Below, piece by piece: positions 103-24,294 of a DNA stretch of 24,294 nucleotides. Source of the stretch: Saccoglossus kowalevskii (lineage: Eukaryota > Hemichordata > Enteropneusta > Harrimaniidae); NCBI RefSeq assembly GCF_000003605.2, contig NW_003124908.1, forward strand, positions 105,928-130,221. The letters are read 5' to 3'. The notes below the pieces were generated by a model that saw only the letters and a program-made list of their open reading frames with translations, was not told where the DNA came from and made no database searches. The position numbers and the translations under genes were made by a program. Each line of letters begins with the position of its first letter. Position 1 is the first letter of the stretch.

Positions 103-3100
103 AATCAATGTTGGTGGTAAAATTTTAACCAATCATCTAAAAGAAATCATCTCATATCGTCAGTTACATGTAATGGATGAGACGTACGTCATCAATCAGG
201 TCAAAGAGGATGTCTGTTTTGTATCTAATCAGTTCTATAAAGACATGAATATAACACAGTGAGTGATGCATTATGGGTTATATACACACTACAAACAAAA
301 AACTACTATTTTTATTTCTAGTCTGTTTTTAAAGACCAGAAACTGACATATTATCCCAAAACCTTGGCAAAAAATGCAGCCTCGTGGTCCTAAATATATT
401 ATTTATTGCAATCCCAGAGGTGTAATCATTTTGTTTGTTCATTATTGTAGATTAAAAGGTAAAGACAATACAATTGTCAAGGACTATGTTCTTCCAGATT
501 TCTCACAGATTAAAAGAGGATATGTGAAAGAGGAATCCTCTGGGAAAGCCAAACAAAATGAACAGGTGGGTTGGTAACTATGGAAACATTGTTTTCCTTG
601 GTGATATCAGTTTGATTCACAATTACATCCATGTATGTGGTTAGCATTTTGTTACAATCACTGTGTTAGCTATGTGCCATTTATAGGAATTTGGCTGAAT
701 GCATATATTAGCATAGTACTTTTTTTTAATCATGTTCAAACACACTTTGGTTCACATGTAATTCTTAACTACTGGCAATATTTCCACAATATGCACAAGT
801 ATGTCACATGACATTCTAACACAACAATAAACAAACAAAAAACCTTCTCAGAATGTGATTTTAAGTTATTTAAAATTGCATTTGCACTTTGCAAATATGT
901 GAAATGAATCCAGAACAAGCTACAAACATAAACTGTTGGTGTTAATATGAAATATTAAAAGTAGATATATATTTTGCCCTGTCCCATGTGCAGGCGAAGA
1001 CTCCCCCTCTTTAAGTAAAAAATTACTGAAAATAATCATTTATACAATCAAGAAAAACTCATTTTTTCATGCCAAGTATCAGCAAACAGCATTTTAGTTT
1101 CTGCTTTAAAATTCTGTCTTGTCAAACATGCATAACCGAAACAAACTTTTGTGATTATGGTCACCATATTTGAAAGTTTAAAATAGATATACCAAACAAC
1201 TGTACAATCAAAGTTGCCATTTTGAAAACATATGAACCCTGCTTGCCTTCCTCAGAACTTGAGAAATTATTTTGTTGATTGTTGACGCAAGTTTTATTCT
1301 AAAATTGTATACACTCTTGTTCACACTCAATGACATTAGAAAATTGTGCAATTTCATGATCTTAATTTTGTTGGTATGTTTATTATTATGGTACACGAAT
1401 AAATTAGTATCTCATTTCATACCATGGTAACATCTGACATCTAATTTACATATTATTGAACATTCTGGATTTAGTTTCAGAAAAAAGCTTCAATGTAAGA
1501 CACATTATTGTATTTGAGGTTCATCTGAAAATGTAAAAATAAACTTCAAAAAATGTTTTTTATTTGGTTTAGTTTGGTTTGGGGCTTCATTATTTGTGTA
1601 ACCATTGCCCTTAAATTCATATATCAGGAAATGGTACTTTACAGATTTGCAAAGTCTGCAACTTTAAAAAGAGTGCAACTTTGAAAACTGTTAACTGCCT
1701 AATTGTGAGCTTAGTTCTAAAAAAAGAACAGGATTGTTGTGCTCCCTCTTCGTCATTTTATCATTGACTTGACACTCTCTATGAATGTATGTGATGATGA
1801 CTTTAATTTATTTGTAGATAGTTCGTATGAACAATGAAAGATTCTCTGTACCAGAAATTCTTTTCCATCCATCTGATATTGGTATTCAAGAAATGGGAAT
1901 ACCGGAAGCTGTAATTCTTGCAATAAATGCTACACCTAAAGGTACTTAATCTAGTAAAATAGTCAAAATTTGATTCTATAGTTATTGCTTTCAACTTTTT
2001 GTCTGCATGATCCACATGAAGTCATTATGTTTGTATTAATTAGTGTGCAATGCTTTGTCTCACTGAAATGTTTAAATTTTTTTAACTGGCAAATATAATA
2101 ACACATTTGTATATTAATAAAATAATGTAAATCTGGTCAACATTGCATAAACACACATTGAACATTACAGTGTTCAGTTAATTTGTCTGCCTGAAGTGAT
2201 TGGTGTTATTTTGCATGTACATAACTCACAGAACTGAACAATAAATGCCAAATTATTTATAGAAATCTATAAGAGATGTAGAAATTGATTATTGTGACTT
2301 GCAGTTGTCTCAACATTTAACTGATATACATTGTATTTACAAAAAGAGAACGGGAGCAACAAACAAAAGTCACAAAAAGTACAATCATGTCAAATTATTG
2401 AAATAGAATTTTTAGAATAAGCCTTTTAAATAAAAGTTTTCAAAATTTTGTTTTCTATAGTTTAGAATATGTTATAGTAGAATGTTATCAGTAGAATGTT
2501 ATCAGTAGAATGTTATCAGTAGAATGTTATCAGTAGAATGTTATCAGTAGGCATAGAATGTATGAAACAACTGATACAACTTTGTATTTTTAAAAAATCT
2601 TGATAATTCAAGGAAGGAGCTGAAAAGATAAATTTCTAATATTTTTTTTTAATTTCAGAAATGCATCCACATCTTTACAGAAACATTGTGCTGACTGGTG
2701 GCAATTCTCTATTTCCTGGCTATCGACAAAGAGTTTTTGATGAAGTGAGGTCACTAGCTCCTCAGGAATATGAAGTCAATGTTGTCTTACCTCAAAAGTA
2801 AGTGATATTTGCAAAGTAATAGCTTCCTTTAAAAACATGTCCTTATAGATTGACTTGTGTTTCTGTGTACTTGGTGCATGCATGAATGTATCTAGAACCA
2901 ATCACATTCAAACTTCCACACATACATCATACTTCTTAGGATATGAATATACATTGATTTGTTTGACATCCCAATGACAGCCATTTATTTGTCTCCATTT
3001 TTTTTTTAAAAATTCTCTTCTGGAGCCATACCTCTGATTTGTCCTGACTTATCATGTTCATATATCATGTCATGTCACACTTATGCACATTTATCAGTTT

Positions 3101-4565
3101 GAAGATTTGATTCAAGATGGTTGAATGGTGGTTTTTTTAATGTTAAAAATTCATCAAAATCAAGCAATTCTGGATCCAGATCTTGGTTGCACATGGACAG
3201 ATTTTGTTCAAGCTTGGTATAAAAAATTATGTCGTCTTGATGCATGTTTTTTTGTTTTTCATAACAGTTTTACATGAGTGTAGCTCATATCTTTAACATG
3301 CTCTGATTATTTATGTTAAAACTTTATATTTCTTGAAACTCACAGGGACTAGCTGTTATATGTGTTTTCATTCTTTCAATTATTATATTGACCTAATGTT
3401 TTGCATGTGCCTAGTACTTTAGTTTAGACATATGCACATGCATTGGTTTACTGATTTAATCAAGATGGCTAACTGGCAGCTATTTTGTGTTTTGTAAAAT
3501 TGGTATCGGATCAAAGATGGCCAACTGGTAGGCATTTTGTTTTTTGAAAATGTGGTATCTTATGCATGCTTTTGTTCAAATTTAGTACATACATTGTACA
3601 TTTTAGATTACATGCGCAAGTACAATTTGTTTTACGAACAGATCATAGATAGCTGACTGGTGGCCTCGTCGTGGCTTTTTGACCATACTACATCTCCATG
3701 TCTTAGGGTCCATTATCAATCATATTTGGCACATACATCATATATATTGGAATACATGTCTTTTTTTTTCTTAATCAGATCAACTTGGCGGCCATCTTGC
3801 TTTTGACCATACTACTACCGGTATATCTCCACGGCTTATGGGACCATTTTCAATCATAATTTGACACATACATCATACATATTGGAATAATCAGATCAAA
3901 GATGGCCAACTGGCATCCATCTTGTTTTTTGAAAATGTGGTATTTGATTTCCAATTTGATACAAACATTATGATTTGTTTTGTGTTTCTTATCTCTGTAT
4001 GTGAGTTTAGATAAAAACATACATGAACAGTACAATTTAATTTCTGACCATATATTATGATTTTGGAAGAGTCATTTAATACATCTAATTTCTGTTGATA
4101 CTAAACCAGTCAATTATTCACTCTTTATTTTTGTCATGAACAACATTTCCCCTAATCCCAACAGGTCTATGCCATTGACAATGACTTGTGAAGGTTGCTT
4201 TTATAGATAATAAATTCATTGCGCTTACATTTTGTATTTGAAAGTTGTAAGCAAAATGTTTCGTTTTTACATAAGGGTTGTCATAGAAACATCTGTCTGT
4301 TCTAACATTGATATCAAATTCAGATATAAAACACCTTTGCCTGGTGGTACTTGCTCTGAACAAAAAATGCCAATGAATATTATGTGATTTTCATCTTTTA
4401 CTAAAAATGACACATACTTGTTTCTCAAACAGTGCCATAACATATCCCTGGGAAGGCGGTGGTGTGATCTCCAAATATGAAGAATTTCAAGACAAATATT
4501 GTGTGACCAAAAAACAATATGAAGAAAGTGGACAGAACATCTGTCTGGAGACTTTTGATGTGTGA
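103..4565 (+). CDS. ACTR6: Actin-related protein 6 (ACTR6), 3' part, five exons
   Basis: Exons 103-258, 451-565, 1818-1941, 2659-2797 and 4433-4565 (stop TGA 4563-4565) all have AG/GT borders and join in phase, giving 221 C-terminal residues; the N-terminal half lies upstream of the window. Recognised from diagnostic stretches such as INVGGK, HLKEIISYRQLHVMDET, KDYVLPDF, ERFSVPEILFHPSDIGIQEM, NIVLTGGNSLFPG and YPWEGG, which follow vertebrate ACTR6 residue by residue. ACTR6 is a nuclear actin-fold subunit of SRCAP/SWR1-type complexes that deposit histone H2A.Z (family knowledge). The loop after YVLPDFSQIKRGY is shortened and Ser/Lys rich compared with my memory of the human protein. The introns at 566-1817, 1942-2658 and 2798-4432 hold no other gene I can see; the last two carry tandem or dispersed repeats. 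The gene converges on the minus-strand hexokinase. Confidence 0.95.
2476..2549. repeat. 14-bp tandem repeat in ACTR6 intron
   Basis: About five nearly identical copies of AGTAGAATGTTATC lie head to tail in the intron before exon 2659-2797. The unit is not a multiple of three, no ORF is associated, and it lies about 110 bp upstream of the splice acceptor. Confidence 0.9.
3100..3935. repeat. Diverged dispersed-repeat copies in ACTR6 intron
   Basis: The segment contains several degenerate copies of one module: an AGATGGCCAACTGGC-like core, then a GCCATCTTG-like stretch, a TTTTTTGAAAATGTGG or TTTTGACCATACTAC link, and a CACATACATCATA...ATTGGAATA tail. Clear cores occur near 3463, 3517, 3780 and 3898. 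A related core (GGCTGACTGACGGCCATTTTGG) sits near 11634 in a hexokinase intron. No ORF is preserved, so this looks like remnants of a non-coding interspersed repeat that multiplied locally. The family is not identified. Confidence 0.6.
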
Positions 4566-5387
4566 ATTATTTGTTATCATATACATAGGCCCTAGAAAAA
4601 GAAGGATAGGAAACATGGGCATTTTATTTGATGCAATCTTGGTTGAATTACTCATGATGATTCACTGATTCGCTTCTTGTTTACTGAAAATACTTTCCAG
4701 GTGAACAAATATGGTAAAATCTGTCTTGTATGAATTGCAACTTTTGTATATAGCTAATTGTTGTTCAGCAAGACAGATCAATACAATATGAAATACGACA
4801 GTTTAAATTTTTTCATGTGTGATTATTCAATTATTCACACATTATTGACTCCTAAATATCACCATGTCACAAGATTATATTTTATAAACTATTATGACTA
4901 TAAAACTGGTAATGAAGTTGTGAGAAAGTTAATTGACAATTTTGGTTGTTGTTCCCAAACTACTGTAGAATACTTTACTTCCACTTGGAATTTATTTTCC
5001 CTGAAGTGATAATCGAGAAAATTAAAATCCAGTCAATATACCTTTTTCCTATATTTTACATTCAACTCATCACAAATCAGTGAAGATTCTCCAAACAAAA
5101 CACCCAGTGAAAAATAATTCCAGCTAAAATTATGAATTTTACATTATTTCAAAAACAGTGCACAACTATGACAGCTCTGCACATGCATGGTAACTCTTTT
5201 GTTAGCCTTAGATAATCCAATTATAAATTTGGTCAGTATAACCAAGCTCTTACAATAACCATTCTGATTTCCTTATTTGTTGTTTTGCACAGTTTCTTAT
5301 CCTTTTTTTCTTGAGTTTACATATATATGTCATAATGTATGGCATTATATTTGGGAATATATTGTTGATATTTGTAACAAGATTGGT

Positions 5388-7058: not shown

Positions 7059-10000
7059 TTATTTCTTTAATCTTTGGGCAACAGCAGCAACTATAGCAGC
7101 ACCTCTACCACTACCATCTGATGACTCCACATACTGCACAGTCATAAATGGAGCAAGTAGCTTGGTGGTTTCCGCCATTATTGTCTTTATATTTGGATGA
7201 TACTTATAAAGTGATCCATCCACACCACATATGACTTCTTTTCTTCCCACCTGACAGACAATGGCAGCAATACCTGCTGATAACAGCTTGGCAGCACGAG
7301 ACGAGACAGCAGAACAGACTGTCTTGACCTTTTCACAGTCTTCATCTTTTATCTCTAGACCAAACTTCTTGAATATAGATTTGCATGCTTCATTATTTAC
7401 ACTGGTGTCTCTGTGTATATAGTAAATACATTTGAATAATTACATTTGTCTCCAAACATTCTATCATTAGTTCCATTCTGAATATTCACAGCAATTTACA
7501 AACACAAGTGATGGATGAATGGATGGATGGATGGATGGATGGATGGATGGATGGATACCGAGAAACATGTGATATTATGTGCTGCACAAGTTGTACAAGT
7601 CTTATGTTATTTCTTTTACTTTCAAATACTAAATCAATGTTCCAGCAAGAACACGAAATATACTGACTATATTATTGTTGTATAAATATTCTAGAACTAC
7701 ATCTACAACATCCCAATGATGTAATAATGGTCCGATATAGTATAAGGCTTATATGTTTCATCAATGAGCTGACAGACGATTAGTACGTATGTCGACAGCT
7801 TGATGTAAAGGCATTTCAAAATGCTCATACTAGTTTATGAGCTGATAACAACAAACTCGGTGAACTTACTCTTCAATGTATGAAATATATTTAGTTTTGA
7901 AAATCCATTTAGTTTCTAAATCGTCTGTAATATTACCATTGAAGATAACACCAGCCTTGGTTAGTTTCACAAGAATTAAACGAACAATTTCACCCAGGTA
8001 CATCCCAGAAGTCATCTTTTCAAAACTGTTGATAAAAAAGAAAATGCTTTTGTTAGTTTGAAGTAAGCACATTTCACAAAGTTGAACAAATGAGCAAAAC
8101 TCATTTCTTATAAATTCGTTTTACACTGTGGCATGTGATGAAATGTTAGGTTGTAAGTTCTGCCACACGGAGAATACATTCTAATCTTGATTCTACTTAT
8201 GCGACTTTGGTCAAGTATTCTTACTCGATTTCACTATAGTGAGTTGACCTACTTGTCCATATATACGCCATAGGCTTAAAGAAGGTTCGAGAAATTGGTA
8301 ATTTATAAATAATCCTGCTTATAATACAGGTTACTTTATAAACCATTAGGTTCAATTTGGAGAAACAGATCAAGGTACGAAGTGAATGCTAAGTTCTTTA
8401 GAAGAGTTGTCAATGTATCTGTGCGTGTTGTTGAAGTGGTGTACATCTAGGAATACATACTCGATTGGCTGAGGAAAACTGTTTGATATCTTTATATTTT
8501 AAATAGTGAGAGTTAGCAATTGAACCCCTCAACGAATGAACAAATGATTTTAATAATGAATGAATAAACGAATGAAAAAAATATTAATTCAATGCAACAA
8601 TGTGTTATTATATGCAAACACTTTCATCTTCCATGTGCGGGCGATCATTTTCAAAGAAGGCGTTAATGTTTCCCATAAATAATGTATGCGTGGTTCTCGG
8701 ATGTACACGTCATCATATATGCAAGTATACGATGTACACGCCATCATATATGCAAATATCTGATGTACACGTCATCATATATGCAAGTATACGATGTACA
8801 CGTCATCATATATACAAGTAACTGATGTACACGTCATCATATATGCAAGTATCCAATGTGCACGTCATCATATATGCAAATAACCGATGTACACGTTATC
8901 ATATATGCAAGTATCCGATGTACACGTCATCATATATGCAAATATCTGATGTACACGTCATCATATAAGCAAGTATACGATGTACACGTCATTATATATA
9001 AGTATACGATGTACACGTCATCATATATGCAAGTATCCCGATGTACACGTCACCATATATGCAAGTATCCGATGTACATGTCATCATATATGCAAGTATA
9101 CGATGTACACGTCATCATATATGCAAGTATCCGATGTACACGTCATCATATATGCACGTATACGATGTACACGTCATCATACATGCAAGTATCCGATGTA
9201 CACGTCATCATATATGCAAGTACACGATGTACACGTCATCATATATGCAAGTATACGATGTACACGTCATCATATATACAAGTATCCGATGTACACGTCA
9301 TCACATATGCAAGTATACGATGTACACGTCATCATATATACAAGTATCCGATGTACACGTCATCATATATGCAAGTATCCGATGTACACGTCATCATATA
9401 TGCAAATATCTGTTGTACACGTCATCATATATGGAAGTATACGATGTACACGTCATCATATATGCAAATATATTATGTGCACGTCATCATATATGCAAAT
9501 ATCCGATGTACACGTCATCATATATGCAAGTATACGATGTACACGTCATCATATATGCAAATATCTGATGTACACGTCATCATATATGCAAATATCCGAT
9601 ACACACGTTAAACTTACATATGTTTTCCATCATTCACTGTGCTTCTATTGATTTCGTCATCATACTCAGTTATCAAGTGTTCCAATACTCCTCCATTACC
9701 ATCTGCATCTCTATCACCAAATGCACCCCATTCAGTGTTGATTATGATCTGCTGAGGTGGCAGAGTGTCACCATCCCAAATATCAACATTCTCAAGTTTC
9801 TCAATATAGCACGCGTTAGTACCAGTCCCTATAATTATACACATATATTGATAATTTAATTAATTTTGTTGATTTTTATTAAATTATTTCTTACATATTT
9901 CGGGTATATACAGTAAGACTGATGGGTGTTATATTGGCATGTGTGTGTGACCGACTTGTTTATTCGTACGAATTTCCACAAAGCGACTACAAATTTATCT

Positions 10001-13000
10001 GAATTGTGCATACACACACTGAATTAGTTTTCTAACTTACCAAGAATAAGACCTGCCACACAATCGTGGTGTTCAAAAGCACATGACATCAGCGTACCGG
10101 TTGTATCGTTAATCACAGCTAGCACGTTAACAGATATATCCTGTAAGTATACAATAAAAGCATTAACACGTCGAATAACAAATGATTTCATATTTTCTTC
10201 TAATGCCGGAAATGTTCAAATAAATTATGTTTACTATTACCCCTCTGCGTTTTATCGCTTCTTGTAAAAGTACATAAACATCTTCGCCTTCGACTCCTGA
10301 TACCTCAAAATCTTTGGACCAAGCAGTCAGAGTAGCTACGGAGAAATACCATCACTAGTAGATTTAATGCACTAATTTTGTCAAATTTCATATTTACTCG
10401 CATTTTACAGAGCGTTCGAATTTAAGTTTTTTTTTATAACCCCACAATACATTTTCAACAACAATGTGAAGCCAGTACTGTCTAAATATATATATATANN
10501 NNNNNNNNNNNNNNNNNNNNNNNNNNNNNNNNNNNNNNNNNNNNNNNNNNNNNNNNNNNNNNNNNNNNNNNNNNNNNNNNNNNNNNNNNNNNNNNNNNNN
10601 NNNNNNNNNNNNNNNNNNNNNNNNNNNNNNNNNNNNNNNNNNNNNNNNNNNNNNNNNNNNNNNNNNNNNNNNNNNNNNNNNNNNNNNNNNNNNNNNNNNN
10701 NNNNNNNNNNNNNNNNNNNNNNNNNNNNNNNNNNNNNNNNNNNNNNNNNNNNNNNNNNNNNNNNNNNNNNNNNNNNNNNNNNNNNNNNNNNNNNNNNNNN
10801 NNNNNNNNNNNNNNNNNNNNNNNNNNNNNNNNNNNNNNNNNNNNNNNNNNNNNNNNNNNNNNNNNNNNNNNNNNNNNNNNNNNNNNNNNNNNNNNNNNNN
10901 NNNNNNNNNNNNNNNNNNNNNNNNNNNNNNNNNNNNNNNNNNNNNNNNNNNNNNNNNNNNNNNNNNNNNNNNNNNNNNNNNNNNNNNNNNNNNNNNNNNN
11001 NNNNNNNNNNNNNNNNNNNNNNNNNNNNNNNNNNNNNNNNNNNNNNNNNNNNNNNNNNNNNNNNNNNNNNNNNNNNNNNNNNNNNNNNNNNNNNNNNNNN
11101 NNNNNNNNNNNNNNNNNNNNNNNNNNNNNNNNNNNNNNNNNNNNNNNNTATATATATATATATATATATATAAAATAACTAAATAAAACAATTATCAGTT
11201 GTTAATTCCCAACCTGAAGTAAGACCTTTCTGCACATAGGGAAATGAAAACGTAAACCCAAGCGGTAACGTCTTTTCTTTTAGTCCATTTTTCTCCATAA
11301 ATTCAGCTAAACGTTCTGCAACATAGTCAAATAACTGAAAATCAAAAATAAAACGTCAGCATAACATAAACAATGATTAACACAATTATAAGATATATGC
11401 ATTGGGAGCATATTCTATCATTACATCGGTTCTAATAATTTGGGTTCTGTGTGTCTGTTAGTCCGTCTGGAGCCATTTCTCGGACATAATTTGACTGATC
11501 ATTCTTAGACCATGGACGACGACTCACACATGCACGTTTGTTTTTTATAAAACATGGCTGTATTTATTAAAGTCCTGTAATTTTTTTTGTTATGGGTAAT
11601 AAAAAATATTTATCAAAAAAAAAAAAAAAACATGGCTGACTGACGGCCATTTTGGTCCTCAAAATTGCTGAGTTCTGATAATTAGTGTGATTCAAAGGCG
11701 GCACACATTTTTGCATGGGGACGTGATTTGCTCATCAACCTTGCGCTTTCGGTGCGACCTTACTAAGGGGTCCGCGCGCTTCTCCTTAAAAATTTGGAAA
11801 TCTAGACCCTCTATTTCATGCATTTTGAGGGGCAAATTTTGCTGGCACAAAAGGTTTCAGCTAGATTTTGTAGGGGGGACGCCCCCAACATCTTTTTCGA
11901 GAGGGCGACCGTCCCACCCTCTGCCCCCCCCCCCCGTGCCGCCAACACTGCGATTGTATTCAAACTATGTATCATGATGACGCATAGGAAGACGTTATAT
12001 TTTTGAGATTTGTTTTTTTATCTGTTTGTATGTGTGATAGATAATCATAACATATTGTCAGTCTATGCACTTCACATCGTATTGAAATTGTCTTAAAGAT
12101 GGGACATGTACGTGATAGACGTGTATATTTACTTTGTACTGAATATTGAGATGGTCTACGAGTGAAAACAATACAATGCGTGTTGCCTATTGTTTCGACT
12201 ATTATTGTTTGTTGTGGCTCGCTATTGGCTATTGTAACCTATTGATATATATCATGTTCTTGTGTAAATAAAAATAACGATTGAGTAGGCTAGTTATCTT
12301 CATATCTACTGACCATTATTTGTTTAGCACTGTGCACTATAGAGTCTCTCGTGAACCGCTCAATCCCATGGATTGCACCAAAGAATCATGGGACACTATT
12401 GTTTTATAATGTTTACAATGTTAATCTATCGAGATTAGGCTTAACTGGATCCAGAAACAGTTGTGTCACGTAAATGTAACAACAAACCACAGTCCCTCTA
12501 TCTATGATAGAGGGACTGTGAACAAACCCTACTGACTCACTTACTTGAATACCAGTTACTTTCTTCAAGTCTTTTATTTCATGTCTGGTTTCAGCAATTT
12601 GTTTAACAACTTTGTCACTAATGTGAACGTATAACACACGGAGATTAGTACCACCAATATCCAAGGCCAGAAAATCACCACTCTCTTGAAAAATAAAATA
12701 TTCACGAGCTGCTGATAGTTTGCTGCAGTGTCTAAGTTCAGATATTATACAATTTTAATACTAATATGACGTTAATAACTGTGCTATTATTGTTTCACAT
12801 TACCTGTACCATTGGGTGTGAGTCTCACATATGGCGGATACATCTTTCTTTAGCGATAGTATAAATAACTTTAGTGAGACTTTTCAACATCTATATTATC
12901 ATCTCTACCTGGACCATCGGGTGTGGCTAACATGCATGCCAGACACATCTCAACTTAAAAAATAACATAACTAGTTTTAATGCAACATTTGAACATTTCT

Positions 13001-15746
13001 ATGTTGAACTTCACTCTTACCTGTACCATCAGATGTGGCTGTACATTTTAACTTAGGGTACATATTAACTTAACAGTAGCATATATAATGTTATTATACA
13101 TCTGTCACCGTAACGCCATAAGTTACAGCGTGCCGTACTTTTGTGGTATTTACGGGGTATTTTCATCCTACCATATTAGAAAATGCAAATTCCAAATATG
13201 GAATGATTACGCACGTAAGCGTCCTTTAAAAATAAAAACAAACATGGCTGCCACCAGGGTTTGACCGAACTCTACACAAAGAAGTTCGCTGTTTTTGTTC
13301 TAAACATTTTGAATTTCCCATGGTGTATCCTTGTAAGGAAAAGATGTATAATAATAAGGTTATTACGAGAATACCTCAAAGTATGCACTCAGACAGTACG
13401 CCGCGCATCGATCTCCGCGCATACTTCAGCTGTACTATCTTCGTGCATATTTTGAAGTGTTCTCGTAATAACCTTATATTATCAAAACATTTCATGGTCC
13501 CTATATTCATCCTTACCTGTACCATCAGGTGTAGCTCTCACATATGTCGGATACATCTTAACATCCGCAGTATTATGAGTATCTTTACTGAGACCTTTCA
13601 TCATCTCCCTATGCATGAGTTCTTTTACATCAATTAACTGGTCTATTCTGTGATGCATACATTTTAACATTGACGTCAGCTACGGATAAATACATATTAT
13701 TACAGACAAACTGTTATTAATGATTATTGCTGATTTTAATTGTATCTCTTTTTTATTTCCTGCTATTGTTCACACATGTAGCATATTATTCTCTAATATA
13801 TATTCTATATACGATGGCACATATGATGTTGTGTTTTCTTATTAAAATCGTATGCCAGTATTTCGTGAAGAATAATTAAATGTTTGTTTTACCTCATTTT
13901 CCTCTATATTTTCATCTGCATTTCTGTTTGGATCTATAAGTAAGCGTTAAGTAACAAACACCCATAGTATAAGGTAAGCAATATTATATGGCAAACACGG
14001 CACAAATAATATCAATAGCATTGTATCCATGGCTATATGTGTAACATGAGAATTTAGGTGACTTGTATGTCCATTTTTGTAGTTTAAATAAAATAAAAAA
14101 ATCGCGAAACGGAGGTGTTAGCGCGAAATTCGCTGTAACTGCGAAATCACCACGACGGGGTGATTTCGCGTTAACACCTCCATTTCGCGATTTTTTAAAA
14201 AAAAATTTAAACTAAAAAAACAAACAAATTAATCGCCCCGACTGCGCCAGTCTACCCTGATGTATCTTCCAAGAAAGTCATACCGTCTCGTGTAAGTGAC
14301 AACGTTCATAAGAATTGTATTATATTCATATACGGTCATCCGTCTGTTGTTACATTGTAAATGGTAACAACATTTATTATATCCATCTAACTCATATTGA
14401 CGTCACAAAAACTCATGTCGACGTCTCAAATGCGATTCGTTACCTAAGAGCGCAAGTCATAGGAATGGTGTATTCACTGAAATGAATTGTTATTTCTATT
14501 TATAGAAATTGCTTTATTAAGAATAGTCTTTATAATATCTCTTTCAATAGTGCCGTACTAACAGCAAAATTAAATGGACATTGTTGTATCATACAACTGA
14601 TATATGTGAAGTACCCGAATGCAAAATACAGGAAGAAATGTAGCAACCATACAAACAGATGATATGTATGTATACATCACTATAACAATACAGACATACT
14701 AGCCCCGAGATGACAAGTGCATATCCCATATAATTGATCATTTAACGTTAATATAAATAATCATGACACATAAAAACGTGTATAACATACTTGCTTGTCC
14801 ATGATCATCTACGGTATCTTCATAATTGCTTGTTGTCTTTAACATTAACTGTAGAGGCAAATACGAGCAATAACTGTTAAACAAAGATTTCGCTGAAAAT
14901 GTTTATTTTATTCATAAATTAACTCATCTTACATCTTATCATCAAATTGTCATAATATTAAAATGTGTAAGTTACTGTATACTTATCCACTACTAAATTG
15001 GTCTACATGATAAAACAAGTTACCACGTCTATATGTCGTTGTGTTTAATACTATAATTTGACTTACCTCATTTTCATCGGAATTTATGTCTGAATCTACC
15101 AATACAAATCAAATTAACAGAAAACAATATCAAATACGTAATATTAAATAATTGTATATAAGTTTGAAAACACATCGAAATATTATTTCCGGTTAATGAA
15201 TTTGTAACTTCGCTATATTTTAATTATGCAGCTTTTTACAACTCTAATTCACTGTACTAAATGTCTGCTACTTCAGTTTGTTTTAACTTTTCGATTCACT
15301 GACTCTCAACTGATGAAATAATGAAAATAACAAATCTTGAAATGTTTAATAGGGAATCTGACTTCAAGCTGAGCTTATAGTGATGACGCTTGTAAATGAT
15401 ACTGCTAATTTGTGCTTGTCTTTATCATGTTGTACAATCAAATAAATAATCTTTGTTCCACCCTACAACGTGTTTTGTCAATGAAGATAGTTGAGGTATC
15501 TACACAATATTACGCAGCAAACGAACAACACACACACACGTGTAACAGCGCTGTGTCTGATAAACCCTAACCCTAGTGTGATATGGATGCTCCGTAATTG
15601 TAAGCTGACTCTGCTTTGTAACCACCGTAATTGTAAACAGTTTTATAAATAACGAAATCAGTGCAATACATACTTGCACCTAGTTGTCCAGGGTCACTTA
15701 TGGTTTTACCATCTTCGCTTCTTGCCTTTGTGCAAGTATTTCCCAT
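7059..15746 (-). CDS. Hexokinase, single-domain, complete, 12 coding exons
   Basis: ATP-dependent hexose kinase (first step of glycolysis). Exons in transcript order: 15746-15674, 15095-15067, 14848-14791, 13933-13893, 13679-13517, 12684-12545, 11334-11214, 10335-10241, 10140-10041, 9828-9618, 8025-7870, 7410-7059. They total 1539 nt and close one 512-aa frame. Landmarks: KGLSKDTH and PDGT (end of exon 5), phosphate-1 loop DIGGTNLRV (130-138), GFTFSFP with Ser198, Lys216, catalytic Asp252 in NDTTGT, Asn278 in GTGTNACY, Glu306 in NTEWGAFGD, Glu346 in FEKM, adenosine-site motifs GVDGSLYK (458-465) and [10 protein letters not shown] (492-501). Length matches roughly 50-kDa invertebrate hexokinases; it is not the duplicated 100-kDa vertebrate form. 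Oddities: residues 1-67 are an atypical acylation-like and acidic extension, and five residues (RDADG) are inserted after GAFGD. Family assignment is certain. Subtype is unclear: the core differs from the typical mollusc/fly enzyme at many sites, so this may be a paralogue. The N gap lies within an intron and the protein is contiguous across it. Confidence 0.94.
7510..7556. repeat. (GGAT)n tetranucleotide microsatellite
   Basis: About eleven ATGG/GGAT units with one interruption (GAAT) lie in the hexokinase intron before the last coding exon. Confidence 0.95.
8700..9606. repeat. 30-bp minisatellite, about 30 copies, in hexokinase intron
   Basis: The unit contains GATGTACACGTCATCATATA followed by TGCAAGTATM. 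Copies differ at a few fixed sites (AAGTATAC, AAGTATCC, AAATATCT), and a few carry small indels near 8990 and 9030. Because 30 is a multiple of three, long reading frames stay open on the plus strand, but they encode only a repeated Tyr/His/Ile-rich peptide and are not genes. The array ends a few bases before the splice donor of exon 9618-9828. Confidence 0.95.
10485..11172. repeat. TA microsatellite with 650-N assembly gap
   Basis: A TA run before 10499 continues after 11148, so the N block (10499-11148) interrupts an unresolved TA repeat. Hexokinase exons on either side encode contiguous protein (...QKGLTS then [10 protein letters not shown]...), so no exon need be missing here. Reading frames spanning the gap are artefacts. 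Confidence 0.95.
11335..12544. other. Hexokinase intron holding a GC-rich repeat-like block
   Basis: The intron between exons 11214-11334 and 12545-12684. Within it, 11690-11960 is much more GC-rich than the rest of the window, with GGGGGGACGCCCCC-type and C12 runs (11924-11935), poly-A at 11614-11630 and a GGCTGACTGACGGCC core. It resembles a fragment of an interspersed repeat. The 96-codon frame across it lacks any family signature and I do not call it a gene. Confidence 0.5.
12481..12527. mobile_element. Perfect hairpin flanked by a 7-bp direct repeat
   Basis: CACAGTCCCTCTATC (12488-12502), loop TAT, then GATAGAGGGACTGTG (12506-12520) forms a perfect 15-bp stem. AACAAAC stands immediately on both sides (12481-12487 and 12521-12527), as expected for a small foldback insertion with a target duplication. 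It lies just after the splice donor of the GGTN-loop exon. Confidence 0.6.
12804..12892 (-). pseudogene. Decayed copy of hexokinase exon 13517-13679 (copy 3)
   Basis: About 89 bases match the 3' part of exon 13517-13679, including the splice donor (GTAATG). The frame retains [14 protein letters not shown], with PDGT changed to PNGT, but has two stops upstream of KMYP. It lies in the intron between that exon and exon 12545-12684. Confidence 0.8.
12909..12953 (-). pseudogene. Exon copy 2: open 45-nt cassette-like segment
   Basis: Similarity to the end of exon 13517-13679: [14 protein letters not shown] against [14 protein letters not shown]. It has a donor (GTAGAG) and a possible acceptor (TTATTTTTTAAG). 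From acceptor to donor it is 45 nt, phase 1 to phase 1, with no stop, so inclusion would keep the hexokinase frame. It is more likely a relic than a used exon. Confidence 0.65.
13021..13068 (-). pseudogene. Exon copy 1: open 48-nt cassette-like segment
   Basis: Similar to the end of exon 13517-13679: [15 protein letters not shown], donor GTAAGA. A possible but pyrimidine-poor acceptor (CTGTTAAG) would give 48 nt in symmetrical phase 1. A stop lies just upstream of that acceptor. It shares the TAAGTT block with copy 2, so the copies probably arose in series. Confidence 0.65.
13346..13483. mobile_element. Foldback element next to hexokinase exon 5
   Basis: AAGGTTATTACGAGAA (13356-13371) is mirrored by TTCTCGTAATAACCTT (13460-13475). 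The inverted similarity continues inward imperfectly (TATGCAC.. against ..GTGCATA; CCGCGCAT.. against ..CGCGCATA), so nearly the whole 138 bp can fold on itself. No ORF with a family signature is present. It ends about 30 bp from the donor of exon 13517-13679. Confidence 0.6.
13893..13933 (-). other. Hexokinase mini-exon B2 (acidic linker)
   Basis: This 41-nt exon has acceptor CTTATAG and donor GTAAAA and encodes [14 protein letters not shown]. It shares GATGAAAAT and the GAAAATGAG end with exon B1. A2 plus B2 together make 99 nt, phase 0 to phase 0, so the pair could be skipped without breaking the frame. Confidence 0.65.
14080..14214. mobile_element. MITE-like foldback with TA ends
   Basis: TAGTTTAAAT at 14080-14089 is mirrored by ATTTAAACTA at 14205-14214. 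Inside, AAAAATCGCGAAACGGAGG and GGTGTTAGCGCGAAAT pair with the other arm, and the centre carries a second hairpin (GCGAAATCACC / GGTGATTTCGC). A TA on each side could be a Tc1/mariner-style target duplication (inference). It is CpG-rich in an AT-rich intron. Confidence 0.7.
14791..14848 (-). other. Hexokinase exon A2, duplicate of the first exon's 3' part
   Basis: This 58-nt exon has a strong acceptor (TTTGCCTCTACAG) and donor GTATGT and encodes [19 protein letters not shown]. Its 3' end (GAAGAT...GGACAA...GCAA|GTATGT) repeats the end of the first coding exon, including the donor. It runs from phase 0 to phase 1. Its internal ATG could serve an alternative start that would lack the MGNTCTK motif. 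Confidence 0.65.
15067..15095 (-). other. Hexokinase mini-exon B1 (acidic linker)
   Basis: This 29-nt exon has acceptor ATTGGTAG and donor GTAAGT and encodes [10 protein letters not shown] together with the phase-1 base of the previous exon. It ends in phase 0. It is similar in sequence and identical in phase to the 41-nt exon at 13893-13933, so the two look like duplicates. Confidence 0.7.
15674..15746 (-). other. Hexokinase first coding exon with acylation-like N terminus
   Basis: Chosen start ATG at 15746-15744; the exon encodes MGNTCTK followed by a Ser/Asp/Gly-rich tail ending DPGQLGA, then donor GTATGT in phase 1. Gly2, Thr6 and Lys7 fit the N-myristoyltransferase consensus, and Cys5 would suit palmitoylation, as in plant calcium-dependent kinases starting MGNTC (family knowledge). 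The start is supported by exact frame closure to the hexokinase core. An upstream out-of-frame ATG exists about 28 bases earlier in the presumed 5' leader. Confidence 0.75.
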
Positions 15747-16088
15747 GATAAGTATGCAGTTATGTTACGCATATGCAACCCTGTTTTTTATATTATTTTG
15801 GTCTGGAACCACGTAAACCTGTAAATACCATAATATATGGCATCAAGTCAAGCAAAGATAATAAGAAATTGAGACCGTATTCAAACAAACACTATGTAGG
15901 TCACTATGTTGTGTCTGTAATGGTTACGATATTCGTGATGTAATAATATGTCACACTATGGAAGAACTTATCATGTTTTAAACATTCAATGCATTGTATA
16001 TTCAGGTTTGAAAATAGTTTCTCAGATCTAGCAAATTAAACCAAAAAACTACAAAAACACAATAATGAATAAATCTGTACGCACCTAC

Positions 16089-16190
16089 TTTAATTCCGTC
16101 TTGCCGATCGTGGTCATGTTTTTACTGATAATCACAGGAGTGGCTGACAGTGTTACACAGCAAGACAGTGACGAATAGACAGAGAGTGCC
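16089..16190 (-). other. Probable hexokinase 5' UTR exon
   Basis: On the minus strand this stretch is richer in GC than its surroundings and ends in a donor-like GTAGGT (plus 16083-16088). It contains an ATG at 16116-16114 that opens a short frame (MTTIGKTELK...), which meets a stop soon after splicing to either acceptor I tried upstream of the first coding exon. It would therefore be an upstream ORF. Exon limits are inferred, not demonstrated. Confidence 0.35.
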
Positions 16191-16238
16191 AGTACTTTTA
16201 TTACAGCATTTTAAAATAACTGGTAATACGACCCCCAG

Positions 16239-16261
16239 TAACGTCATGTGACCATAGCAAC
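16239..16261 (-). promoter_or_regulatory. Overlapping CRE-like, M-box and X-box-like sites
   Basis: Read on the minus strand, three motifs overlap within 23 bp: GTTGCTATGGTCAC (16261-16248, 11 of 14 matches to the RFX palindrome GTTGCCATGGCAAC), GTCACATGAC (16252-16243, a perfect M-box/E-box) and TGACGTTA (16246-16239, one mismatch to a CRE). They lie about 500 bp upstream of the hexokinase start codon and about 60 bp upstream of the presumed 5' UTR exon. Assignment as promoter is inference. Confidence 0.4.
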
Positions 16262-17229
16262 GCTAGCAATGAGTAAAACAGTTTAATACTCAGTTTAAAA
16301 ACTGTCTTGTTAAATAAAGTCTTAATCTATTCAACAACTGGTCTATATACGAGGTATTCCTAATGTACATTATATGTGACTATAAATATGATTTCCATAC
16401 ATATTTGAAACACCCATGTAAATTAATATAGTAATATAGAGCCCCTATAGACCATGTTTCTGAGTCGTTTTGCATCAGCCCATTTTATTACAATTTTAAT
16501 GGATCTACAGTGGAATATATAATTATAAATGCCTTGTGGCGGTAGATTCAAATTAATTAAATAAAAAAAAAAGTCCTGCGACATGATAAAATATCTGCAG
16601 TCTCGACATTTGATCTCTGATCGGATTATGTACAGGTTAGTTCGGATCCGGGTTAGAGCCAATCATTCCTGAGATATATTCATAGTAGTCAGAATTACAT
16701 TTGTTGAAAGATGTTAGTCACCTTTGACGTCATCAAATCTGAATTTTCTTTCATTGGCATCGTCTTTGAAGTCGAAACACAAACTTGTGTAATCTGATTG
16801 GCTAGCTCAGTTTCAAGCTCAGACAACCAACCCAAAGTATTGCTCGAGGTTCAAGTAAGGTGAACCCCCAAATCATAGAGGAATCCCCTTCACTAGTATA
16901 TCATATATTATGAATCAAAGTCATAATCAACGAATCAAGTTGTGCCTTCTATGATCATATACCATATTGTTTACTAAGTTATGTTTTGTTCTTCAGCAAA
17001 TTATGGTGTGGCAAATTACAAGTCTGTTCATTGGCGTGTTTGAATTTCATGTAAATAAACAATGTATTTTACACGCGTTGTATACGTCGCTATGAATCCC
17101 ATATCGAATAGGGTGCGGTGCGACGACTACCGCCCTTTAAACGTCACGTACAAGAAGAACCTTCCTACTATATCCTAACAGTACGAGTAAATGAAAGTGG
17201 ATTAAGATTGAAAAACGCGACTCTTATTG
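16262..17229. other. Intergenic spacer upstream of the hexokinase
   Basis: No exon is recognised. A perfect palindromic CRE (TGACGTCA, 16725-16732), CCAAT boxes (16658 on plus; ATTGG near 16797) and a CpG-rich patch (about 17070-17225) suggest promoter DNA, perhaps for a second transcript pointing right. Nothing else stands out. Confidence 0.35.
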
Positions 17230-17290
17230 TCAGATGACAACATACACATCAGATGAGGAGTAGACACCCTTCTTGTTTCTGGCATCATAG

Positions 17291-17610
17291 TTATAAACCA
17301 CAAAGAGCTAAACAGTAACACCTGCAATCCCAATAATTACGCTCAGGGTGGAGATCATTATTATGAAGCAACCGCTGGCAACTACTACTTTTTGAATGAA
17401 GGATAAGCCTTTCTTTCAAATACCTTGGAAGCAGTTTTTTTCCTTTGATAAAGATGTAAAGGCACAAGAAAACTTCAGATATAATCAAGATTGCCATGCC
17501 ATGATATAAATCTGACCAGTTCACAATAAATGATTCTATCTGTTGATGAGGGTACTTTTTCTGGTATTGGCTATGACAAGATCGACCCTGGGGATAAACC
17601 TAATAATTCT
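17291..17610 (-). CDS. Open frame with a membrane-like helix, unrecognised
   Basis: A stop-free minus-strand stretch of about 106 codons begins at acceptor-like TATTAG. It reads SFIVNWSDLYHG, then a hydrophobic run GMAILIISEVFLCLYIFI, then basic KGKKLLPRYLKERL. In the next frame, after a five-A run, a second hydrophobic run follows (SGCFIIMISTLSVIIGIAG), so one extra A could have broken a two-helix protein; that second frame meets a TAG soon after. It could be a pseudogene, a sequencing slip or chance, since AT-rich DNA easily reads as hydrophobic. Family not recognised. Confidence 0.25.
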
Positions 17611-19512: not shown

Positions 19513-20622
19513 GGTTTGGCTTGGGCTCCTCCTGACAAGTTTGGCTTGTGCTCCTCAGGTCAATTTTGGCTTGGGCTCCTCAGGTCAAGTTTAACTTGGG
19601 CTCCTCAGGTCAAGTTTGGTTTACCGGTAGGTTCCTCTGGTCAAGTTTGGATTGGGTTCCTCAGGTCAGGTTTGGTCTAGGTTCCTCTGGTCAAGTTTGC
19701 CTTGGGTTCCTCAGGTCAATTTTGGTTTGGGTTCCACAGGTCAAGTTTGGTTTAGGTTCCTCTAATCAAGTTTGGCTTGTACACCTTAGTTAGATTTTGG
19801 TTTGGGTTCCTCAGGTCAAGTTTGGCTTGTACTCCTTAGGTAGATTTTGGTTGGTTTCCTCAGGTCAAGTTTGGCTTGGGCTCCTCAGGTCAAGTTTGGC
19901 TTGTACTCCTTAGGTAGATTTTGGTTTGGGTTCCTCAGGTCAAGTTTAGTTTAGGTTCCTCAGGTCAAGTTTGGCTTGTACTCCTTAGGTAGATTTTGGT
20001 TTGGATTCCTCAGGTCAAGTTTGGCTTGGGTTCCTCAGGTCAAGTTTGGTTTGTACTCCTTAGGTAGATTTTGGTTTGGGTTCCTCAGGTCAAGTTTGGC
20101 TTGTACTCCTTAGGTAGATTTTGGTTTGGGTTCCTCAGGTCAAGTTTGGCTTGTACTCCTTAGGTAGATTTTGGTTTGGGTTCCTCAGGTCAAGTTTGGT
20201 TTGGGTTCCTCAGGTCAAGTTTGGCTTGTACTCCTTAGGTAGATTTTGGTTTGGGTTCCTCAGGTCAAGTTTGGTTTGGGTTCCTCAGGTCAAGTTTGGC
20301 TTGTACTCCTTAGGTAGATTTTGGTTTGGGTTCCTCAGGTCAAGTTTGGCTTGTACTTATTAGGTAGATTTTGGTTTGGGTTCCTCAGGTCAAGTTTGGT
20401 TTGGGTTCCTCAGGTCAAGTTTGGCTTGTACTCCTTAGGTAGATTTTGGTTTGGGTTCCTCAGGTCAAGTTTGGTTTGGGTTCCTCAGGTCAAGTTTGGC
20501 TTGTACTCCTTAGATAGATTTTGGTTTGCGTTCCTTAGGTCAAGTTTGGTTTGGGTTCCTCAGGTCAAGTTTGGCTTGTACTCCTTAGGTAGATTTTGGT
20601 TTGGGTTCCTCTGGCTATTCAG
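19513..20622. repeat. 25-bp minisatellite with A/B higher-order units
   Basis: About 44 copies of a 25-bp monomer. Type A reads TTTGGTTTGGGTTCC then TCAGGTCAAG; type B reads TTTGGCTTGTACTCC then TTAGGTAGAT. The left third is mostly diverged A-type monomers; from about 19775 on they are ordered as AB (50 bp) and AAB (75 bp) blocks. Because 75 is a multiple of three, repeated Trp/Phe/Gly-rich frames appear, which I do not regard as genes. The array lies just downstream of the DEPDC7-like stop codon. Confidence 0.93.
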
Positions 20623-20683: not shown

Positions 20684-23547
20684 TTATAGAAATCCATGAA
20701 AATGTACATCATATACATCGCTGTGAGCTTTCTGCAATTGTTTGAGTTTTTGTTTCTTTTGTTTGAGTGAGAGGTTCACATCATCTATAATATAGTTCAT
20801 CAAATCACGTAAAGCATCACGAGTCAAGTTTACTTTTTCCTTTTCATAGTCTATCTTAGATATCATAGTACAGTAGGTTTCTGAAAAGAAAAGAAAAATT
20901 GTACTGTAACAACTGCATCAAACTAAAGCTGAACTTACTAACAGAAAGAAAGTAAAGCTGCTTGATTCCCTGGACTGATTGAGATAAAAGTCTACATATA
21001 CTCATAATCCAAATACCAAAAATGCATGCACAATTGTCCTCTGAGTCAATATAAAGTCATCAATCATATAAATGTCTCATATCACTCTTCTAGTACATTA
21101 AATTCAGTTAAATGAGTACGAAGACAATTTTTTTCTTGATCTGTAAATATTAGATTTGATGACATGTCTAATAGTGTAATTCATACAAACTTTTAGTCAG
21201 TTTAGTGTAATTCATACAAACTTTTAGTCAGTTTAGTGTAATTCATACAAACTTTTAGTCAGTTTAGTGTAATTCATACAAACTTTTAGTCAGTTTAGTG
21301 TAATTCATACAAACTTTTAGTCAGTTTAGTGTAATTCATACAAACTTTTAGTCAGTTTAGTGTAATTCATACAAACTTTTAGTCAGTTTAGTGTAATTCA
21401 TACAAACTTTTAGTCAGTTTAGTGTAATTCATACAAACTTTTAGTCAGTTTAGTGTAATTCATACAAACTTTTAGTCAGTTTAGTGTAATTCATACAAAC
21501 TTTTAGTCAGTTTAGTGTAATTCATACAAACTTTTAGTCAGTTTAGTGTAATTCATACAAACTTTTAGTCAGTTTAGTGTAATTCATACAAACTTTTAGT
21601 CAGTTTAGTGTAATTCATACAAACTTTTAGTCAGTTTAGTGTAATTCATACAAACTTTTAGTCAGTTTAGTGTAATTCATACAAACTTTTAGTCAGTTTA
21701 GTGTAATTCATACAAACTTTTAGTCAGTTTAGTGTAATTCATACAAACTTTTAGTCAGTTTAGTGTAATTCATACAAACTTTTAGTCAGTTTAGTGTAAT
21801 TCATACAAACTTTTAGTCAGTTTAGTGTAATTCATACAAACTTTTAGTCAGTTTAGTGATACCTACCATTGTTTGGGAGATAATCTTTGCCGTGTCTTGC
21901 AGCTGATAATTTCTCTTCCACCTCCTCAGCAATTCTGTCTGGTATTTCAAAAACTTCATTATTTTGATCCATCATGAATATGACAAGTTGTTCCGACTGT
22001 CCTTTGCTTAACATAGGATGGTGTATTATGACATTGGTGAATGAACGGCGGACTAGTGTTCTGTTGTCAACCTGATGGAAAGAAAGTTGAATTATGACAC
22101 CACCAATGGGTTGCCTGAAACGTGGATAGTAGTATACAATACTAGTTTATGTGTTCACTGGGATTTTTTTCATTATATTTTGTTTAATCAATCAATGAAT
22201 ATGCAAAAATAACTATAGAATTCATTGTTTCCTTAACAAAAAAGTTAATTTATACCCAATTGTACCTAATAAATATCATCAAATTGGGTTAATTACACAA
22301 CCTCAAAGGTAGAAAGGAAGCATCACCAATTTTGGTTTCACTTCAGTTGGCAATGATCTTTTTAGCCCACGTAAGTGTGCCCTGTCCTTTTCTGCACTGA
22401 ACAATATAAAAATAACTTGACTCACATCTTGATCCAGTCTTACTCCGTGAGATGTAGCTGCATGTGACATAAAGTTTAATAACCTCTTCAGTGAATCTCT
22501 GGTTGATCTATTCAATAGTATCATATGTAACTGTACCGCAAACAATGCTTCTTTGCATTTACCATTAGAAAGTAATGTCAATATTGCAGTATATAACTCA
22601 AAAAATCCTTTTGGCAGTAGAGGTTCTCTCTGTCCATGGTATAAGTCCTGTACAACTTTAAACAATGCTTTTTTCTTGAGAGTATCCATTTCTTGGATAT
22701 CAGATGCATCTGATATGTTCCCATCTGATCCAATGAGACTTTCAATAATCCTTAGACTTTCTGGGTGCTGATCCAGGCAGTCTAGTGCAGATACAATCCA
22801 TCCATCACTGAGAAGTTAACAATAAAAAGAGTTAACCAAGTTTTGATACTGATTTCTAATGTAGATACAATCCATTCACCATTGAGGTGTTAACCAAGTT
22901 TTTATATTGAAATGAAATTACTGATGTACAAAGACGATAGGGGACTAATCTTTACATATGCACTAGAAAATAATGACATCAAACACATACATGTACTACA
23001 AACAAATACAGTTATATTATGTAATTATTTCTTACCTTGGTGTACTTGTCTGGGCAGGACTATGAGTATTAGCAAAAACATTAGAGATGACAATATTATG
23101 GGAGTCTTCCTGTTTATTGTCTGTAATACATTTCAATACATGGTCTAACATTGGCACATCAATTACATGCAAAAGTCTTTCCAATGCTACTTCTCGCCAC
23201 ACATCATCAATATCTGAAAAGAAACAACAATTTCAGGTCAATCATTGCTGTTAGACAAACCAATTCAGGATTATTCACATGTCTATCTGAAGTCATGTAA
23301 ATTAACCTTTTCACCACCAGTTCCCTCTTTTCATCACAAATTCACAAAATAGTCTTGTTTATAGTGTCACTTTCACTACTATTTACCTCTAGACTGTACA
23401 ATAGATGTAGATGATGCTGTAGACATATTGCCTTGACTGTCATTACATGTACTGTCCTGTAAGATTCTATGAAATAATTCACCATATGGACTGAATGGCA
23501 AAGGATTGCTAATAACACGCTCTGTGTCTGGTGTCTTGGGAACATCT
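20684..23547 (-). CDS. DEPDC7: DEPDC7/DEPDC4-like protein, 3' part, five exons
   Basis: Exons in transcript order: 23547-23387, 23213-23036, 22807-22426, 22071-21867, 20880-20684. All join in phase to a 373-residue C-terminal part; the N-terminal DEP domain must lie beyond the right edge. Recognised from the DEPDC7 C-terminal region: DDVWREVALERLLHVIDVP, DGWIVSALDCL, REPLLPKGFFELYTAILTLL, RDSLKRLLNFMSHAA, VDNRTLVRRSF, EQLVIFMMDQNNEVFEIP, and the tail LTRDALRDLMNYIIDDVNLS followed by a Lys/Gln-rich helix ending HSDVYDVHFHGFL. The first exon here is Ser/Thr-rich and poorly conserved. Molecular function of this family is little known, and I assign none. Vertebrates have two paralogues, DEPDC4 and DEPDC7; one invertebrate gene may stand for both. 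The intron 20881-21866 contains a satellite array. Confidence 0.9.
21172..21858. repeat. 31-bp satellite, about 22 near-identical copies, beside a splice donor
   Basis: The unit is TGTAATTCATACAAAC followed by TTTTAGTCAGTTTAG. I saw no base differences between the copies. The array ends 8 bp from the last base of exon 21867-22071, so in the transcript it begins just after the donor GTAGGT. Each unit on the transcript strand carries CTAAACTGAC, which resembles branch-point sequence. Confidence 0.95.
22858..22905 (-). repeat. Decayed duplicate of a DEPDC7-like splice acceptor
   Basis: On the minus strand, ATGGATTGTATCTAC with its upstream TTGGTTAACACCTCAA copies the start of exon 22426-22807 (CTCAG, then GATGGATGGATTGTATCTGC) about 70 bp further 5'. 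In the copy the acceptor CAG has become CAA, so it should be inactive. Confidence 0.6.
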
Positions 23548-24294
23548 CTGTAAAACAAACCAAATAATAATTACAAGGAGAGACCACACACTGAGCATCA
23601 CACACAAGTCAAAACAAAAGAAATGAATGAATAAACAGCAAAATATACCTTTACTTTTCATTTATACAGCCATCTCATGTAAAAAAAAGTCTACAATGGG
23701 ACCAGGATGTTTTTAAAATATGGAATATATTTTAAAATGTATTCACCACTGTGACATGAAAGCACATTGAATGCATTTACAGTAACATAATTTCTAATAT
23801 CATTTTGTTATTACTATCATCAAAAAAGAGCTCCATGTTTCTAATTGATTAAATTCAATAATGCCATGATGATGCACTTTTAATATGTAGTCAGAAGAGA
23901 CTTTATTAACTAACTACTTTATTGCATGTAGTTGTACAATCATGGGTTAAATGGTCTTATTTGGTTTGGGGGAGAGGTGATAAATAGACCAACTTTAAAT
24001 ACTTAAATTCAAATGAAATTGTAGAGTTGATGGCACATCATTTCCTTCAGAATAGATGAGAAAATTTTGCAAAAGCACTGAAATCTGAACTGATAAACAG
24101 AACCCAACTTAGCAGTAAATTGCAAATGGTAAATATTCAGTAAATTTGAATCTGCAGGTCAAATTTGCAAATCATTTTGAATGAGTACCGTAACTAGAAT
24201 ATCTACATTAAAGCGAACTTAAATGCGGCCTTAAATTATAGTTCTGTATATTCTAAACTGTATTCGAAATAATATTGCAGTGGTTTAATTTTTT
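23548..24294. other. Presumed DEPDC7-like intron, no exon seen
   Basis: The exon at 23387-23547 starts in the middle of a codon, so an upstream exon exists, but no matching exon with a donor is visible before the window ends. Confidence 0.55.

Follow-up and report, generated by a model that had tools for sequence, protein, structure and literature searches.

The stretch of Saccoglossus kowalevskii DNA analysed here (24,294 nt of contig NW_003124908.1, in the following the window) carries on its minus strand a gene for a single-domain hexokinase whose first coding exon opens with MGNTCTK, a putative signal for N-myristoylation at Gly2 and palmitoylation at Cys5. On balance, and with modest confidence, we favour the reading in which such an anchored protein exists and bears the acyl groups. 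Through the mammalian sperm enzyme HK1S, the dual acylation of hexokinase is an established mechanism; the new aspect, as yet unproven, would be the presence of the HK1S layout on a single-domain hexokinase of the invertebrate type. If true, the device is either ancient or has arisen twice. The question bears on the ATP supply of cilia and flagella far from mitochondria.

The window is animal-type DNA, and the hexokinase gene reconstructed from its sequence comprises 12 exons between a start ATG at 15746 and a stop at 7059 (Table 1). The spliced coding sequence of 1539 nt (512 codons and the stop) is free of internal stops and all introns are GT–AG, in agreement with the exact frame closure over 12 exons claimed in an initial annotation made from the letters alone. 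The translated protein matches Pfam Hexokinase_1 (PF00349) at residues 68–262 with 252.5 bits against a cut-off of 24, and Hexokinase_2 (PF03727) at residues 269–506 with 210.5 bits against a cut-off of 24.3. There is only one hexokinase domain unit in the 512 amino acids, hence a single-domain enzyme of about 50 kDa. In alignment with HK2 the motifs GGTN (residue 132), FTFSFP (195), WSKDF (214, with Ser in place of the Thr of WTK), INDT (250) and NTEWGAFGD (304) are kept; we take these to represent the glucose-binding, ATP and catalytic sites, with Asp252 as the presumed catalytic residue. As the glucose, ATP and catalytic motifs are present, activity is probable. Among solved structures, the nearest are vertebrate HK1 and HK2, each half of which aligns to residues ~70–511, along with enzymes of a single domain such as 1bdg (presumably from Schistosoma; E = 2.2e-101, query residues 80–509). 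The first 81 residues gave zero matches in the PDB set (up to E = 10) and in Pfam, and the whole protein was without a match in NCBIfam.

The evidence for exons 1–4 begins at the border of the core. In the HMMER local alignment query residue 70 corresponds to HK1 residue 24, which places the start of exon 5 (residue 68) at about HK1 residue 22; the porin-binding segment in the first exon of HK1 is taken to be 21 residues long. According to the available text of the HK1S report the porin-binding domain of HK1 is contained in exon 1 (PMC4736023), and as exon 5 starts just past that exon, an upstream coding exon with a phase-0 end is to be expected. Such an end is supplied by exon 4 (or exon 2). 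The upstream exons were then evaluated by a search for the best exon path into exon 5, using splice-site and codon scores trained on exons 5–12 and parts of two neighbouring genes (14 donors, 17 acceptors, 832 codons) with exons 1–4 excluded. The exon penalties were chosen by us, and the outcome is to be read as support rather than proof. With the middle penalty the path consisted of precisely exons 1–4, also when the sequence was extended to 17600, and the observed score was matched or beaten in 36 of 10,000 dinucleotide shuffles of 13680–16400 (two of which gave no path at all). The same path was still best at the low penalty with sequence to 16400.

The start itself provides a second, largely separate line of evidence beside the path score. 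The minus strand from 15746 to 15674 translates exactly into a reading frame with the MGNTCTK start given by the initial annotation; an in-frame stop precedes the ATG (open reading frame 15573..15764), the bases at −3 and +4 of the ATG are A and G, respectively, and exon 1 closes on the donor GTATGT. Gly2, Asn3, Thr6 and Lys7 fit an N-myristoyltransferase substrate, and Cys5 appears well placed for palmitoylation. Using a PROSITE-type myristoylation pattern, 8 matches were obtained among the 830 ATG starts of both strands of the window that stay open for seven codons. Three of these also have Cys at positions 3–6, all on the minus strand: 15746, 13321 (in intron 5) and 6920 (past the 3′ end of the gene). 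Of the 10,000 shuffles, 456 had a best exon path beginning with MG, 82 one whose start fits the myristoylation pattern, 16 one that fits it and also has Cys at 3–6, and none one beginning with MG[NQ]xC. The fit to myristoylation and palmitoylation proposed in the initial annotation is thereby upheld at the level of motifs. The reading frame, the hexokinase domains, the motif and an X-box upstream are seen in the sequence itself; that transcripts include exon 1 and that both residues are acylated, as well as the location and a ciliary or sperm role, we infer.

Between this start and the core lies an extension of 67 residues from exons 1–4 with a net charge of −11 and 21% hydrophobic residues, likely to be a flexible tether. 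A mitochondrial (porin-binding) N-terminal helix was considered and is ruled out by the hydrophilic character of the first 75 residues, in which the top 15-mer reaches a Kyte–Doolittle hydrophobicity of −0.51. The 3′ part of exon 1 has a diverged counterpart in the 3′ part of exon 3, and exon 2 has one in exon 4; the alignments include the splice site in both cases, and none of 2000 shuffles aligned as well in either comparison. The likeness of the exon pairs 1–2 and 3–4 indicates that the extension grew via duplication of a two-exon unit; the duplicate copy (exons 3–4) has not retained the MGNTC start. The end phase is 1 for exons 1 and 3 and 0 for exons 2 and 4, and consequently the joins 1-2-5, 1-4-5 and 1-2-3-4-5 are all in frame.

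The closest functional parallel is mammalian sperm HK1S. As described in the available text of PMC4736023, HK1S starts MGQICQ and is N-myristoylated at Gly2 in vitro and in reticulocyte lysate; a G2A exchange renders it cytosolic, changes of the putatively palmitoylated Cys5 abolish the plasma-membrane pattern, and Gly2, Gln3 and Cys5 are conserved in thirteen orthologous sequences. The same text attributes the form to replacement of the first HK1 exon by a two-exon region, four residues longer, and states that two predictors missed its myristoylation. Exons 1–4 of the window gene occupy the corresponding position. The suggestion in the initial annotation that a membrane-tethered hexokinase would be a new localisation mode is refuted by this precedent of Gly2- and Cys5-dependent targeting to the plasma membrane. 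Both enzymes carry the motif MG plus Asn or Gln at position 3 and Cys5 (MGNTCTK versus MGQICQ), a similarity too short to judge common descent, and both have a basic residue 7 (HK1S octapeptide GQICQRES). Moreover, both have an acylated, here predicted, extension that is divided between two or more exons and precedes the conserved core, lack the mitochondrial helix, and can be connected with the local glycolysis at the flagellar membrane proposed for HK1S. MGNTCTK is if anything the better consensus, given that it includes Thr6 and that the predictors missed HK1S, which is without Ser or Thr at this position. Conversely, HK1S is a 100-kDa, two-domain, alternatively spliced form whereas the window enzyme is single-domain, and the window extension is longer, acidic, derived from duplicated small exons and acylated by prediction. 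As it is no two-domain, 100-kDa enzyme it is not HK1S proper; on the strength of its sequence it would work like HK1S rather than be HK1S.

Vertebrate HK1 and HK2 share with the window protein the hexokinase core and the exon 5 boundary at about the same protein position, but have a hydrophobic, porin-binding N-terminal helix for which there is no counterpart here. The single-domain invertebrate hexokinase 1bdg likewise consists of one catalytic unit, albeit the match stops short of the extension. Outside the family, sea urchin sperm flagellar creatine kinase is myristoylated (available text of PMC13024116) and the flagellar arginine kinase AK3 of Trypanosoma brucei has a calflagin-like N terminus (available text of PMC4517888). 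In both systems an energy enzyme is sent to the flagellum via N-terminal acylation or an acylation-like signal, as would be the case here, although these phosphagen kinases belong to another sequence family than hexokinase. In the open-licence literature searched, mammalian sperm HK1S was the sole hexokinase described as dually acylated; no such report was found for an invertebrate enzyme, which is weak evidence of absence, and the text of a study on prawn hexokinase gives no N-terminal sequence.

On the HK1S model, the initiator Met would be removed and Gly2 then modified by N-myristoyltransferase, after which Cys5 could be palmitoylated at the membrane. The enzyme would thus be held on the cytoplasmic side of a membrane, be it the plasma membrane or that of a cilium or flagellum, with the ~67 flexible, acidic residues of exons 1–4 linking anchor and hexokinase core. 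Tethered in this way it may phosphorylate glucose near the transporters through which it enters and supply glycolysis on the spot, a role put forward for HK1S.

Several observations weigh against an acylated form starting at exon 1. Exons 2 and 4 have weak acceptors (Table 1), and the strict penalty selected exons 1 and 2 alone. At the permissive, low penalty with sequence to 17600, a path starting at 17497 scored 33.9 versus 32.7 for the MGNTCTK path, i.e. the alternative upstream start was ahead by 1.2 score units in one of six settings. As to the lipids, the call of dual acylation was made by motif rules, and the acidic residues at positions 11–12 are possibly unfavourable.

Exon 1 could be one of several first exons, the acylated form being restricted to ciliated or male germ cells, a reading to which we attach a limited likelihood. 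The in-frame joins described above, the X-box upstream of exon 1 (see below) and the existence of a candidate start at 17497 are consistent with it, as is the precedent of HK1, where promoter choice decides between a mitochondrial and an acylated N terminus and HK1S originates in this way (available text of PMC4736023). None of the candidates for a second first exon is clearly supported, however. The hexokinase might also start elsewhere, either at the upstream exon with the hydrophobic MAILIISEVFLCLYIF start or at Met71 in exon 5. Exon 1 would then be a chance reading, and the enzyme either bound to the membrane through its hydrophobic segment or soluble. Besides the permissive-penalty score, the CpG observed/expected ratio, which peaks (1.3–1.4) at ~16900–17300, and in-frame ATGs within exon 5 speak for such a start. 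Still, the MGNTCTK path wins at the middle and strict penalties even with sequence to 17600, the 17497 path requires an extra exon with weakly supported boundaries, and a start at Met71 leaves the phase-0 acceptor at the conserved boundary without use; we judge a start elsewhere unlikely. That exon 1 is used and MGNTC is non-functional, the N terminus being cleaved and N-acetylated or unmodified and the enzyme cytosolic, appears improbable. Motif fit alone proves no acylation, but MG[NQ]xC is absent from the shuffled best paths and HK1S is myristoylated with a poorer consensus (available text of PMC4736023).

For the anchored hexokinase encoded from exon 1, a ciliary or flagellar location is clearly less probable than the acylated form as such. 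The initial annotation had guessed at the plasma membrane or the cilium, and for the latter the region upstream of exon 1 gives a weak hint: GTGACCATAGCAAC, a candidate X-box (RFX site), may point to a ciliary or sperm/flagellar programme. It is the sole match in the window to the consensus GTNRCCN0-3RGYAAC (available text of PMC10530576) and to the restricted form RTNRCCN1-3RGYAAC (available text of PMC2375033). Among 4000 shuffles each of the upstream 600, 1000 and 3000 bp, an X-box was present in 0.8, 1.25 and 3.75%, respectively, and a strict X-box occurred anywhere in the window in 10.7% of 300 shuffles. A looser search gave two matches; at least two were found in 20 of 100 shuffles. Several points count against a ciliary assignment. 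The X-box was spotted by eye prior to testing and its distance taken from the ATG. FOXJ1-type motifs are not enriched in the window (20 versus 21.7 expected) and none lies in 15747–16967, the 1.2 kb upstream of the start. In the available text of a proteomics study of Ciona sperm flagella ten glycolytic enzymes are reported, hexokinase not being among those found (PMC4427456). It should also be noted that a degenerate X-box upstream of a single gene in a single species is no predictor of RFX control (available text of PMC2375033).

The widest reading, in which a dually acylated, RFX-controlled ciliary or flagellar hexokinase would be ancient, the MG[N/Q]xC exon predating the vertebrate domain duplication and HK1S being its remnant, we regard as a doubtful proposal. 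If true, the local capture of glucose at flagellar membranes would be an old animal device and HK1S no mammalian invention.

A cAMP response element (CRE)-like site, TGACGTTA, adjoins the X-box. CRE-like matches with at most one mismatch are common in the window (13 versus 7.65 expected, with as many in 6 of 100 shuffles), and for this reason its position by the X-box says little. A speculative 5′ leader exon could use donors after 16089 (score 8.8) or 16085 (6.8) and a possible acceptor opening at 15818 (7.0). The small open reading frame MTTIGKTELK (~16118–16086) was tried as a hexokinase start and rejected, its donor phases either failing to fit exon 2 or 5 or leading into a stop.

Table 1. 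Exons of the hexokinase gene and candidate upstream features, in window coordinates
Feature	Position	Strand	Content	Basis or remark
Candidate alternative first exon	17389-17497	-	hydrophobic MAILIISEVFLCLYIF start	via 16722-16763 in frame into exon 2
Candidate X-box (RFX site)	16248..16261	+	GTGACCATAGCAAC	502 bp upstream of ATG
CRE-like site	16239..16246	-	TGACGTTA, 1 mismatch	adjoins X-box
Speculative 5′ leader exon	16085..16180	-	short upstream open reading frames	inferred; left border arbitrary
Exon 1	15674..15746	-	first coding exon; 24 residues and one base, phase-1 end	donor CAA/GTATGT, rank 6 of 257 GT sites
Exon 2	15067..15095	-	29 nt; acidic linker, 10 residues	donor GAG/GTAAGT, rank 1 of 257; acceptor rank 41 of 209 AG sites
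Exon 3	14791..14848	-	58 nt; linker	3′ part resembles 3′ part of exon 1
Exon 4	13893..13933	-	41 nt; linker, resembles exon 2	donor rank 24 of 257; acceptor rank 33 of 209 AG sites
Exon 5	13517..13679	-	163 nt; hexokinase fold begins, residue 68 onward	Pfam and PDB alignment
Exon 6	12545..12684	-	LALDIGGTN	Pfam and PDB alignment
Exon 7	11214..11334	-	FTFSFP	Pfam and PDB alignment, motif
Exon 8	10241..10335	-	WSKDF	Pfam and PDB alignment, motif
Exon 9	10041..10140	-	INDTTG (Asp252)	Pfam and PDB alignment, motif
Exon 10	9618..9828	-	NTEWGAFGD	Pfam and PDB alignment, motif
Exon 11	7870..8025	-		Pfam and PDB alignment
Exon 12	7059..7410	-	ends at stop TAA	Pfam and PDB alignment

The introns of the hexokinase gene hold some further features. 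On its minus strand, intron 5 contains three stretches (12804–12892, 12909–13003 and 13021–13124) that copy the 3′ part of exon 5 incompletely and with divergence, each stopping at the GT after a copied GGTACAG or GGTCCAG; they may be relics of exon duplication or may serve as alternative exons. A palindromic stretch at ~14080–14200 in intron 3 resembles a small inverted-repeat mobile element, and a long tandem-repeat array (~8700–9600) lies inside intron 10. Intron 7 contains a run of N (650 nt at 10499–11148) that affects no exon.

The hexokinase gene is flanked by parts of two others. At ~106–4566 the plus strand carries the final exons of a gene for an actin-related protein (Pfam Actin, E = 6.2e-41), presumably ARP6. 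Exons of another gene lie on the minus strand at ~20690–23600, including a 166-residue piece without a Pfam match; the gene presumably encodes a DEP-domain (DEPDC) protein, a provisional name. Further long tandem-repeat arrays occupy ~19560–20620 and 21165–21860.

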